A stretch of 35,287 bases of DNA from Arcobacter sp. (GTDB lineage: Bacteria; Campylobacterota; Campylobacteria; Campylobacterales; Arcobacteraceae): contig DQSS01000313.1 in the NCBI GenBank assembly GCA_015663165.1, forward strand, positions 1 through 35,287, given 5' to 3'. The translations under genes were made by a program, and so were the position numbers. Numbering within the stretch: the first letter of the stretch is position 1; each line of letters opens with the position of its first letter. Below, piece after piece: positions 6,002-30,969 of the stretch. The notes under the pieces are model-generated. The model made no database searches, was not told the DNA's origin, and worked only from the letters and a program-made list of their open reading frames with translations.

Positions 6002-6388
6002 TTAGATATCTAACTCACCAATAAGGTTAATAAATTTGATAAAATCAAATGGCTTTAAAATATAGTCTTTTACATTTAATTCATCAGCACTTTTAAGATA
6101 TTCAGGTTCAGTATGTGCAGACATAATTACACACGGAATATCAGAACCATCTTCTCTAATTTTTTTAATCATATCTATACCATTTAGTATAGGCATATTA
6201 ATATCAGTTACAACTAATTGAATATCTGGATTATCTTTTAAAGCTTGTAATCCTTCTTCTCCATTGTTTGCTGTAACGAAATTTACCCCCAGTTTTGCTA
6301 GTGTATCACTTATAATTGTTATTAAATCTATTTCATCTTCAACAAATAATATTTTTATTTTTTTAAGCTTTGCAATTTTTTCTTGCAT
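6002..6388 (-). CDS. single-domain response regulator (CheY-like receiver)
   Basis: 128 aa; FVEDE acidic pocket, VVTDINMPILNG phospho-acceptor, MSAHTE, KPFDF. Confidence 0.93.
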   Translation of the reverse strand: MQEKIAKLKKIKILFVEDEIDLITIISDTLAKLGVNFVTANNGEEGLQALKDNPDIQLVVTDINMPILNGIDMIKKIREDGSDIPCVIMSAHTEPEYLKSADELNVKDYILKPFDFIKFINLIGELDI

Positions 6389-27023: not shown

Positions 27024-27052
27024 TATTTACTATATATTAACTCAAAATTTAA

Positions 27053-27058
27053 TATAAT
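27053..27058 (+). promoter_or_regulatory. predicted -10 element TATAAT upstream of the TonB receptor operon
   Basis: AATATAATAATAAATTAAAGGATTAAAAATATG with good Shine-Dalgarno (AAAGGA). Confidence 0.5.
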
Positions 27059-27080
27059 AATAAATTAAAGGATTAAAAAT

Positions 27081-28970
27081 ATGATTAAATATTTATTATT
27101 TTTATTATTGAGTACATCTTCTGTTCTTTTGGCTAGTGATGATTTATCATCTTTGCTTGATGATTATGAAGATAAGAGCCAATTACATAATAAAACAAAA
27201 GCAGAAAGTGCTGGACATTTAATAATATATTCAAGAGATGATTTAGATAAAATGAAAGCATATACATTAAACGATATTTTAAAATCTACAAGATCATTTT
27301 CTTTACAAGAAACATCATTCGGACAAACTGGATTGCAAAGAGCTGGTGCAACATGTACATATGCAGGTTGTGTTAGATTATACATAAACAATCAAGAATT
27401 ATCTTCAATTACAAATGCAAGTGCTTTAATGATATTTAAAAACTATGACTTATCATTAATAGATCATATTGAATTATATATTAGTGGAAATGCATTTAGT
27501 TTTGGAAATGAATATGGTTTTATTACAATAAAGCTTTATACTAAAACACCTAGTAGAGAGAAAGGTACACTTATTACTACATCAATAGATAAAGATAGTA
27601 ATAAAAAATTTAATTTTTTAAATGCTGGTATATTGTATAATGATTATGAATATTTACTATTTGGAAATACTAATAAAAATACTTATGATAGCATATACAA
27701 TAATAATCATGAAATAAAAAGATTTGATGATATATCAAATGTTTACCTAACAGTAAGTAAGAAAAATGACTTTAATATTGAGTTATCTAAGTATAAAACA
27801 AATAATGATATTTTAACAGGTGCAGGAGTATTTAATACCCCTATTGATAGTTATCAAGAAGCTATTTATAGTTATTTTACATACACTAAGTACTATAACA
27901 ATACAAAAATAGAAGCATCATATGCCAAAGAAGAAAACTATACACAAAGCTTAGATAATGGGGGAATAGTATTAGCTGACAATAAAGGTACTATTAATAA
28001 AATGGTGCAAGAGTTTAAAAATAGTGTTACAAAGTTAAGTATTCAGAATAATTCAATAATCAATAATCATAGCTTGCTTTATGGAATAGACTATCAAAAT
28101 AAAAAACTTAACTTAGTTAGACTAGAACATGATGACAGTGATTTAAAAGATACATTTCAAAGTGCAAATCAGCTAAAACTATATTCTGTATTTTTGGAAG
28201 ACTCTTACAGTATAAATAGCGATAATATTATAATTGCTACAGGAAAATATGAATTATATGATCATATAGGGGTAGACAAAAAAGATGAGATTTCACAAAC
28301 TAGACTTGGATTTGTTTCACTATTGAATAATAATGTAACTTTAAAAGGTTTTGCAACAGATAACTACGTATATCCTTCTGCTAAAGAATTTAGTTTATAT
28401 TCAAGAGTAGTTGATGGCAATCCTGACTTAAAACCTATACATGTAAATAACTATAGTACAGAATTAATATACAAAAAAAATAAACACAAAGTAAACTTAC
28501 TATATATGAAAATGGTAATTCAAGATCCTATTAAAATTAACCCACAAACAATGCACTATTTTACACCTGCTAATATAAATGCAAAATTTTATGATACTTC
28601 TATCGATTATCAATATAAATTAAATAACAACCATAAAATTAAACTACAATATTATTGGACTCATCATAATAGAAGTTTTAATGCAAGCCCTTTAGCTGGT
28701 GGCTTCATACAACTTAGCAATTCTTTTGGTAAATTTGATTTTTACAATGAAATTATTTATAAAAAAGGTTATACTTCTCAAAAAAACATAATAATAAAAA
28801 ATGGGTATGATTATACATCTGCTATTACATATAAATTATCTAGAGCATTAACAGTAACATTAAAAGGAGAGAATTTACTAAATAAAGCAATTTCTTCTCC
28901 TGTAAGTGGAATAGAACCAGTACAAACAAGTCAAAAACAAACTAATCTAAGAATTGAGTGGTTCTTTTAA
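27081..28970 (+). CDS. TonB-dependent receptor/outer membrane plug-barrel protein
   Basis: 629 aa; signal peptide; plug GHLIIYSRDDLDKMKAYTLNDILKSTRSF..VRLYINNQEL..IDHIELYISG; barrel with terminal aromatic LRIEWFF. Confidence 0.88.
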   Translation: MIKYLLFLLLSTSSVLLASDDLSSLLDDYEDKSQLHNKTKAESAGHLIIYSRDDLDKMKAYTLNDILKSTRSFSLQETSFGQTGLQRAGATCTYAGCVRLYINNQELSSITNASALMIFKNYDLSLIDHIELYISGNAFSFGNEYGFITIKLYTKTPSREKGTLITTSIDKDSNKKFNFLNAGILYNDYEYLLFGNTNKNTYDSIYNNNHEIKRFDDISNVYLTVSKKNDFNIELSKYKTNNDILTGAGVFNTPIDSYQEAIYSYFTYTKYYNNTKIEASYAKEENYTQSLDNGGIVLADNKGTINKMVQEFKNSVTKLSIQNNSIINNHSLLYGIDYQNKKLNLVRLEHDDSDLKDTFQSANQLKLYSVFLEDSYSINSDNIIIATGKYELYDHIGVDKKDEISQTRLGFVSLLNNNVTLKGFATDNYVYPSAKEFSLYSRVVDGNPDLKPIHVNNYSTELIYKKNKHKVNLLYMKMVIQDPIKINPQTMHYFTPANINAKFYDTSIDYQYKLNNNHKIKLQYYWTHHNRSFNASPLAGGFIQLSNSFGKFDFYNEIIYKKGYTSQKNIIIKNGYDYTSAITYKLSRALTVTLKGENLLNKAISSPVSGIEPVQTSQKQTNLRIEWFF

Positions 28971-29389
28971 TGTTAAAAATTATATTTAGTCTTCTATTTA
29001 TTACTAATTTTGCATTTTCATCACAAATAATAATCTCTACAAAAATTATATCTAAAATAATTTCAGCTATTCATAGTGATGCTAAAATATGGATTGATAA
29101 TAAAGAAGACTATTTAAATATAATAGATATAGAAAAACTAAATATTGTAAGTAACTGCTATATAGCTGATGTATTTATTACAAAAGGAGATGTTTCTCTA
29201 CCTAGTAATTGTAAAAATAAACCTACATTAGTATTTGACTATGATTTACTATATACCAATAAAAATAGTGTTTCTGCATTCTTTTGGAAAAAAGGTAGAC
29301 CTCATATTGTATTTGTAAAAGAAAGATTAGATAAATTTAATATTACAATTCCAAGCAAATACAACTCATATTTAATTGAGAAGCTATAA
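28970..29389 (+). CDS. small exported (periplasmic) protein, unknown function
   Basis: Track ORF starts GTG 28958, but ATG 28970 overlaps the receptor stop (TAATG). Signal peptide MLKIIFSLLFITNFAFSSQ; C-terminal AFFWKKGRPHIVFVKERLDKFNITIPSKYNSYL. Confidence 0.75.
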   Translation: MLKIIFSLLFITNFAFSSQIIISTKIISKIISAIHSDAKIWIDNKEDYLNIIDIEKLNIVSNCYIADVFITKGDVSLPSNCKNKPTLVFDYDLLYTNKNSVSAFFWKKGRPHIVFVKERLDKFNITIPSKYNSYLIEKL

Positions 29390-29390
29390 A

Positions 29391-30956
29391 ATGTCTATTG
29401 TAAACTTATTTAATAACCTAACTATAAAAAAGAAGTTAATTCTATTTTCTTTTACTGTTGTATTATTTGCAGTTGTGATTGCAACATATATATATAATTC
29501 TTCAGTACAGGCAACATTAAGTTTAAAAAGTATTAAGCAATATCAATTAAACTTAATATTTTTTGCACAAAATATCAAATCAAAAATATCAAATGTTGAA
29601 AGTTTAATAGTGCAACAATCACTACTAAAAGCTACAAATAAAGAATTTAGTTTCCAAGATACAAAAAAAGAACTTGATATTATCTCTAAAGAGTTAAATA
29701 AGCTAGAAGCTTTTGCCAAAACAAAAAAAGACAAGAAACTTATAGAAGTAGCAAAAACTATTAGTTTACATTATTTATTATATTCTCTTGCTAGTTTTGA
29801 TTTCTTTTTTGAAGATTTTAGTAAAGAGAATTCTGAAGTTTTTTATACTGCACTAAATGAAGTTATAAATTCTGCTAATTCAATAAACTTAGAGCTAACT
29901 AAACTAACTAGATATTCAAGAGAATCACTTGATAATTCTATCTATAAACTTCACTCAGATATTATAAAAAATGATATGACTATAAGGTATATTGGAGGTA
30001 CATTACTTATTTTAATTTTATTATTTTTACTTATGTTTTCTAAAGAATTAGTAAATCAAATTTCAGTACTTACAAAAGGTATGGAAGAGTTTAAGAAAGG
30101 TAATTTATCTTATCGAATTCATAACAAATATAAAAATGATTTATCTATTTTAGGAGAGTCATTAAACAATATGGCTCATTCGCTAAATAACTCAAATAAA
30201 GAAAAAGAAGATAATCATCACTTACTTGTTCAATCATCAAAAATGGCTGCAATGGGTGAAATGATAGGTAATATTGCACATCAATGGAGACAGCCACTTA
30301 GTTTAATATCTACAGTTACAAGTTCTATGCTAGTTCAAAAAGAGATTGGAATACTAAAGGATACTGACTTTTATGACAACTCAGAAAAAATTCTTAGCAC
30401 TGTCTCTCATTTATCTCAAACAATAGAAGACTTTAGAAACTTCTTTAAAGAATCTAAAGATACTATTGATTTTGGAGTAAACGAAGTAATAAATAAAAAC
30501 CTAATACTTATAGGTTCTACTTTAGATAGCAATAATATAAAACTACATAAAGAATTCCAAAATGAAATAAAGACACATGGTTTGGAAAATGAACTAACCC
30601 AAAGTATTTTAAATATCTTAAATAATGCAAAAGATGCTCTTCTAGCAAAGGAAGATCTAAAAGAAAAACTAATTTTTATCAATACTAGTACCCAAACAAT
30701 TGGAGATAAAGAATTTGCAAGAATAGAAATAATCGACAATGCAGGTGGAGTACCTAATAAAATAATTAATAATATTTTTGAACCATACTTTACAACAAAA
30801 CATCAATCTCAAGGTACGGGTATAGGATTATTTATGACAAGACAAATTATTGTTGGTAATATGCATGGATATTTAGATGTAGAAAATATATCTTATACTC
30901 ATGAACAACAGCACTATACAGGTGCACAATTTACTATAAACATACCTATTTTATAG
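29391..30956 (+). CDS. membrane sensor histidine kinase (HAMP-HisKA-HATPase)
   Basis: ATG 29391 follows the upstream stop by 1 bp. Two TMs flank a ~170 aa periplasmic helical region; H-box GEMIGNIAHQWRQPLSLIS; N-box NILNNAKDALL; G-box IIDNAGGVP..GTGIGLFMTRQII. Confidence 0.93.
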   Translation: MSIVNLFNNLTIKKKLILFSFTVVLFAVVIATYIYNSSVQATLSLKSIKQYQLNLIFFAQNIKSKISNVESLIVQQSLLKATNKEFSFQDTKKELDIISKELNKLEAFAKTKKDKKLIEVAKTISLHYLLYSLASFDFFFEDFSKENSEVFYTALNEVINSANSINLELTKLTRYSRESLDNSIYKLHSDIIKNDMTIRYIGGTLLILILLFLLMFSKELVNQISVLTKGMEEFKKGNLSYRIHNKYKNDLSILGESLNNMAHSLNNSNKEKEDNHHLLVQSSKMAAMGEMIGNIAHQWRQPLSLISTVTSSMLVQKEIGILKDTDFYDNSEKILSTVSHLSQTIEDFRNFFKESKDTIDFGVNEVINKNLILIGSTLDSNNIKLHKEFQNEIKTHGLENELTQSILNILNNAKDALLAKEDLKEKLIFINTSTQTIGDKEFARIEIIDNAGGVPNKIINNIFEPYFTTKHQSQGTGIGLFMTRQIIVGNMHGYLDVENISYTHEQQHYTGAQFTINIPIL

Positions 30957-30969
30957 GTCAAGGAAAACA

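Follow-up and report, generated by a model that had tools for sequence, protein, structure and literature searches.

The window analysed here, contig DQSS01000313.1 (35,287 nucleotides; assembly GCA_015663165.1) of Arcobacter sp., carries three adjoining genes for a TonB-dependent-type outer-membrane receptor, a small periplasmic protein and a membrane histidine kinase. The question raised by this locus is whether the three genes form one signalling system and whether a kinase is the usual output of such a system. An initial reading of the DNA made without database searches (the sequence-only reading) had proposed a relay from the outer membrane to the kinase with the small protein as intermediary. 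Comparison with relatives indicates that a receptor, a YfiR-like protein and an exchangeable output, usually acting through cyclic di-GMP (c-di-GMP), form a real, widespread and apparently undescribed signalling unit, of which the window's kinase is apparently a derived version.

Distribution and co-inheritance of the unit

The small-protein family was found by profile search in 87 of 397 Campylobacterota genomes and in 24 of 68 genera, and it reaches beyond the phylum to some Aquificota, including Aquificaceae and Hydrogenothermaceae. From public genome contigs, 126 places with the small-protein gene were confirmed and 80 were kept (81 small genes); counts out of 105 combine both sets of loci. 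A related receptor lay directly upstream of 77 of the 81 small genes, with one of the four exceptions located at a contig edge and another having a broken receptor frame further upstream. Within 60 sampled genomes of relatives, the receptor profile and the small-protein profile matched exactly the same 23. Regular co-occurrence in relatives, on which the sequence-only reading had staked its proposal, is what these counts show for the receptor and the small protein.

Receptor and small-protein open reading frames (ORFs) overlap or abut in 101 of 105 cases, and the gap between the small-protein gene and the third gene is 5 bp or less in 98 of 105. Pairwise distances between components were correlated (receptor and small protein, r = 0.84; receptor and sensor, r = 0.90; range 0.82–0.90), with none of 500 permutations as high, a correlation partly accounted for by the common descent of whole units. 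From this co-inheritance we infer that the receptor, the small protein and the membrane signalling protein form one unit, as had been proposed.

Presence of the unit is patchy even within the window's genus, and pseudogenisation seems common. Four loci (L023, L032, L037 and L045) are broken units, in which a transposase-like insertion (L023) or stop codons interrupt the receptor, or the small gene has an internal stop. At L025:3865-4311 a small protein and a GGDEF partner were found with no receptor upstream, in a genome that has another full unit (L043). Small-protein paralogues with neither a receptor nor an output gene were seen in two genomes of one genus (L048:5469-5870 and L160:3962-4381), flanked by genes for a 248-aa protein and a HAD-type phosphatase. 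It should also be noted that a public contig titled as Helicobacter pylori PMSS1 isolate (L091) appears to be the same as a contig from the window's genus (G001:C73; 13,396 bases); its organism label looks wrong.

Borders of the unit in the window

The junction between the receptor stop and the small-protein ATG is TAATG, with one base common to both, and the kinase ORF starts 1 bp past the small-protein stop; the three ORFs and their junctions are thus as first described. Genes on the same strand flank the three on both sides (gaps of 57 and 13 bp), so operon status could not be drawn from spacing alone. The borders of the suggested operon are instead supported by a sister genome, G003, the nearest by its flanking Mur ligase (87% identity). 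There, the methyltransferase and Mur ligase that flank the window's block adjoin with a gap of 153 bp and no trace of the three genes. This empty site indicates that the three genes, the kinase included, are a single presence/absence unit. The gap itself (L173:1117-1269) contains an imperfect inverted repeat of about 30 bp resembling a miniature inverted-repeat transposable element. Contamination of the metagenome-assembled genome as the source of the block was rejected, as the flanking Mur ligase is 72–87% identical to those of its own genus and the base composition of the block equals that of its neighbours.

No response regulator was found near the three genes, in agreement with the sequence-only reading, the nearest one seen being a CheY-like gene (6002-6388) about 21 kb away. 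The promoter predicted ahead of the set was not borne out: the region contains 59 promoter-like sites and shuffled sequence 53.8 ± 6.6, so that the count is not above chance.

The third gene in relatives and in the window

The third gene of the 81 units was found to encode a GGDEF-EAL or GGDEF protein in 68 cases and a histidine kinase in 10, with none or an unclear gene in the remaining three. One periplasmic Cache-like domain (alignment A3; weak dCache_1/PDC in Pfam) is common to the GGDEF proteins and most of the kinases in this position. All 25 matches to it stronger than 1e-29 in the 60 relatives sit at small-protein loci, which marks this sensor as a dedicated partner of the unit. What is conserved beside the receptor and small protein is not a kinase but a c-di-GMP enzyme carrying the Cache-like sensor. 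At three related loci the unit's kinase is directly followed by a gene for a protein with an N-terminal receiver (L081, 7714-9717; L084, 7712-9706; L088, 4294-6294); the one scanned, that of L081, is a receiver-PAS-EAL protein, which suggests c-di-GMP as a possible end point of kinase variants as well.

The window's third protein contains HAMP, HisKA with the phosphoacceptor histidine and HATPase_c domains (Pfam) and is a two-component histidine kinase. The suggestion of a kinase as the end of the relay may fit the window but does not hold for the unit in general. No match to the Cache-like sensor was detected in the window's genome (G000). Relatives of the sensor that the kinase does carry were found in only four other genomes of the 60, all in other families and none in its own genus, and they sit away from any receptor/small-protein unit. 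Two members of the window's genus have kinases in third position with yet another sensor. In a receptor tree built by a quick method, with deep branches uncertain, the remaining units with a kinase group together in a single clade (12 rows: 10 kinase, two with unknown third gene). The window receptor is sister to that of a Sulfurimonas GGDEF-EAL unit (about 40% identity, support 100), in a clade otherwise of GGDEF units. This grouping, apart from the kinase clade, points to a second, separate exchange of output, and the window's kinase, with its unrelated sensor, would be a later, derived replacement of the usual cyclase. A search for its cognate regulator in its own genome gave 44 receiver, GGDEF or EAL matches, none of which could be singled out as the partner.

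Membrane signalling proteins with a sensor like that of the window's kinase were also observed directly downstream of DUF3373 outer-membrane proteins, or one gene later (L155, L157 and L158). The L155 protein, a HAMP-SpoIIE phosphatase, is encoded between a Tll0287-like gene upstream and DUF6272 and SiaC genes downstream. These DUF3373-linked sensors are possibly a second signalling set linked to an outer-membrane protein.

Family and predicted fold of the small protein

The small protein has a hydrophobic N-terminus and matched no family in Pfam, NCBIfam or PHROG. The Pfam model PF13689 (DUF4154), to which the sequence-only reading had pointed together with YfiR, gave no match in the protein, in 26 family members or anywhere in the window's own genome. 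Matches by sequence to GTP cyclohydrolase in the PDB (E 0.2) were dismissed as chance. A weak second match to the small-protein profile in the genome (C78, E 3e-4) lies in a 515-aa endonuclease-like ORF and is not a family member.

The AlphaFold (AF2) model of the small protein (26 sequences) had a pLDDT of 87.6. Its top Foldseek matches in the PDB were the substrate-binding protein 3LKV and a single-domain substrate-binding protein of Rhodothermus marinus (E 3e-4 to 1e-3), with 3LFT also matched. Many YfiR chains were matched as well, with probabilities of 0.63–0.99 and TM scores (query) of 0.46–0.57 at E values of only 0.013–0.16. As 3LFT and 3LKV are also the Dali neighbours of YfiR itself (PMC4655355), the same fold family is indicated, and the small protein is predicted to have the YfiR fold. 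A comparison of the family with 13 DUF4154 proteins in hhalign scored 30.1, whereas 60 column shuffles reached 15.7 at most. The hhalign probability was 39–41% with these 13 proteins, 55% with the Campylobacterota subset and below 1% with proteobacterial YfiR alone. The earlier hint of YfiR is thus upheld by the predicted fold and by the gene order of true YfiR proteins described below, but not by the sequence test for DUF4154.

The strongest conservation in the family is one contiguous C-terminal motif and not a scattered pocket. Within this signature K108 is present in 105 of 105 members, R110 in 104, and W106 and P111 in 103 each. The signature covers two strands of the model (100-107 and 110-116), which appear to correspond to the C-terminal strands of YfiR around Phe162, with the register uncertain by about two residues. 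The region around Phe162 is involved in the binding of YfiN and YfiB (PMC3375315; PMC4655355). No counterpart of the structural disulfide Cys145-Cys152 of YfiR was present in the family (n = 105), the frequent cysteines, C63 (77/105) and C81 (79/105), being located elsewhere.

The receptor

The window receptor scored 15.3 bits against Plug (Pfam), under the cut-off of 23.9, with 24 of 26 receptor relatives matching this domain. Its AF2 model (pLDDT 84.4) matched BtuB in Foldseek (E 2e-28), and also the FepA and FecA structures; it is accordingly classed as a TonB-dependent receptor, a type defined by a plug and a 22-strand barrel. No clear TonB box was recognised by eye upstream of the plug. 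A FecA-type transducer, the precedent cited in the sequence-only reading, was rejected: no STN domain was present among the Pfam matches of the 26 receptors, and inspection of ORFs beside the three genes revealed no FecR or sigma-factor gene.

The mature receptor has a conserved N-terminal segment in which L25, L26, S36, T39 and G45 are near-invariant across the 26 receptors, the window having H at 36. It is predicted to be helical with low confidence and is a candidate docking segment. A cysteine pair in the plug, CTYAGC, that had been singled out as a feature of the system is private to the window receptor (1 of 95 in the family), and its interpretation as a redox or metal site was rejected.

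Table 1. Coordinates of the features identified in and around the three-gene block
Feature	Position	Strand	Basis
Block missing between the same flanking genes in closest sister G003; exactly three genes	27024..30969	+	Genome comparison
TonB-dependent-type outer-membrane receptor (P0001, 629 aa)	27081..28970	+	ORF; Plug in 24/26 relatives; AF2 model and Foldseek match to BtuB
Conserved N-terminal segment of mature receptor, residues 22-45, LLxxYxxxSxLSxxTKxExxG	27144..27215	+	Alignment of 26 receptors
CTYAGC cysteine pair in plug	27354..27371	+	1/95 receptors of family
Small periplasmic protein, predicted YfiR-like (P0002, 139 aa)	28970..29389	+	ORF; family alignment; AF2 and Foldseek
Small-protein family signature, residues 102-115, consensus GAFFWxKGRPNIxF	29273..29314	+	Alignment of 105; AF2 strands
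Membrane histidine kinase (P0003, 521 aa)	29391..30956	+	HAMP, HisKA, HATPase_c above Pfam cut-off
Periplasmic sensor region of kinase, approximately residues 37-198	29499..29984	+	No A3 sensor match in G000
HisKA dimerisation/phosphoacceptor domain (IAHQWRQPL)	30252..30449	+	Pfam
HATPase_c catalytic domain	30585..30947	+	Pfam

Comparison with known systems

The closest parallel is YfiBNR (yfiR-tpbB/yfiN-yfiB) of Pseudomonas aeruginosa, a c-di-GMP system with YfiR as its periplasmic repressor. There too, a small periplasmic protein of the same predicted fold is placed between a component of the outer membrane and a GGDEF protein of the inner membrane. Such a GGDEF partner is present in 68 of the 81 relatives and is replaced by a kinase in the window. 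The outer-membrane component differs, being a TonB-type receptor (77 of 81 units) and not the OmpA-like lipoprotein YfiB. The small protein is shorter than YfiR, is not matched by PF13689 and lacks the Cys145-Cys152 pair, and the sensor is Cache-like in relatives, or of another kind in the window, in place of the PAS domain of YfiN. A 2012 paper on YfiBNR, which never mentions TonB, describes divergent YfiR-YfiN pairs that lack YfiB and have GGDEF-EAL or kinase outputs, showing YfiR-YfiN to be modular (PMC3375315).

True YfiR proteins were also found behind receptors on proteobacterial plasmids. The order receptor-YfiR-histidine kinase (L135 and L136) occurs in Sphingobium (for example Sphingobium indicum pSRL1) and Indioceanicola, and the order receptor-YfiR-EAL (L138 and L139) in Pseudoalteromonas and Paraburkholderia (for example Paraburkholderia sp. 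D15). These sets share the gene order of the unit and overlaps of the same kind (13 and 4 bp in pSRL1), but consist of true DUF4154 proteins and SLEEL-type receptors. No paper joining YfiR and TonB-dependent receptors as a system, or naming the proteobacterial sets, was found in the open literature, subscription journals being outside the search. In one Campylobacterota genome (L052), a gene beside that for a TonB-type receptor encodes a histidine kinase with a receiver and an N-terminally fused DUF4154 domain. At L054 DUF4154 is followed by a GGDEF protein.

FecA/FecR/FecI resembles the unit in tying an outer-membrane receptor to a cytoplasmic response and differs from it by the STN domain, FecR and the sigma factor. 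NspS-MbaA and similar pairs of a binding protein and a sensor are alike in that a periplasmic protein controls a membrane GGDEF-EAL protein. NspS, however, is a complete binding protein of two domains and is not known to have a partner receptor in the outer membrane.

Proposed mechanism and alternative explanations

The co-inheritance, the gene order, the sensor private to these loci and the predicted fold together suggest that the block is probably a transferable unit of the YfiR kind that signals from the outer membrane to the cytoplasm, with the receptor in place of YfiB as input. Binding of an extracellular ligand to the BtuB-like receptor would lead its periplasmic face, possibly the conserved N-terminal segment, to capture or release the small protein. 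Acting as a repressor or an activator, the small protein would relay this state across the periplasm and through its C-terminal signature would keep the inner-membrane sensor in a given state, as YfiR does with YfiN. In most relatives the small protein would set a GGDEF or GGDEF-EAL enzyme and thereby c-di-GMP. In the window, a HAMP histidine kinase with a different sensor would have replaced the enzyme, and the unit would signal by phosphotransfer to a response regulator whose gene lies elsewhere; even so, kinase variants may ultimately act on c-di-GMP, as suggested by the receiver genes mentioned above.

Several observations weigh against this proposal. The sensor of the window's kinase is not homologous to the usual one in third position and so need not offer the same contact surface. 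DUF4154 reached a profile probability of just 39–55%, and of under 1% when only proteobacterial YfiR is used. The best structural matches of the small protein are substrate-binding domains, making a ligand-binding role possible. In addition, the small protein and receptor of the window depart from their families at residues that are otherwise nearly invariant (S102 for G; K59 for Q), perhaps a sign of a loosened system.

The main rival takes the small protein to be a one-domain substrate-binding protein, so that the receptor would be a transporter importing a ligand and not a transducer, and the loaded protein would switch the kinase or cyclase, as in NspS-MbaA or LuxP-LuxQ. The 3LKV and Rhodothermus marinus matches and the BtuB-like transporter fold of the receptor are consistent with it, and short single-domain substrate-binding proteins near chemoreceptor genes have been reported (PMC10805632). 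As YfiR shares these structural neighbours, the matches do not separate the two explanations, and conservation concentrated in one C-terminal stretch, instead of a scattered pocket, would speak against it; we regard this alternative as unlikely, though the strongest of those considered. Somewhat less likely still is that only the receptor and small protein belong together, left after loss of the usual cyclase, with the kinase an unrelated neighbour. Its foreign sensor, the occurrence of that sensor's kin elsewhere without receptor or small protein, and the grouping of the window receptor with GGDEF-EAL units could all be so explained, but the kinase begins 1 bp after the small gene and is missing together with both other genes in G003, and kinases take the same position in a distinct clade (10 receptors) and, with a different sensor, in two members of the window's own genus.

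Many TonB receptors are under the control of neighbouring two-component systems, and the BtuB-like fold would also suit a receptor for ordinary uptake of a metal or cobalamin, aided by an accessory protein in the periplasm, with the kinase regulating only the expression of its own operon. With no transporter, permease or response regulator gene in the unit, and a c-di-GMP enzyme, not a typical dedicated local regulator, as the usual partner, this explanation is considered improbable.

Beyond the signalling unit of the YfiR kind favoured here, it is tentatively suggested that the loci represent an undescribed, widespread class in which receptors lacking STN and sigma factor hand a private YfiR-like protein to exchangeable outputs, either a c-di-GMP enzyme or a kinase. 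The window's lineage would then have undergone a second exchange of output, to a kinase whose sensor is unrelated, and the small protein would be a versatile adaptor.

Implications

If the proposed unit is correct, about one-fifth of the sampled Campylobacterota genomes (87/397) would set c-di-GMP or kinase output through dedicated outer-membrane receptors, by a route undescribed in the open literature searched. An uncatalogued protein family would gain a function, and YfiR-like control would extend to a phylum with very few annotations of it (PF13689 in 4 of 121 genomes). The loci would also offer natural experiments, in which the same receptor and relay protein are combined with different outputs: a cyclase, one lineage of kinases and a second kinase of independent origin.

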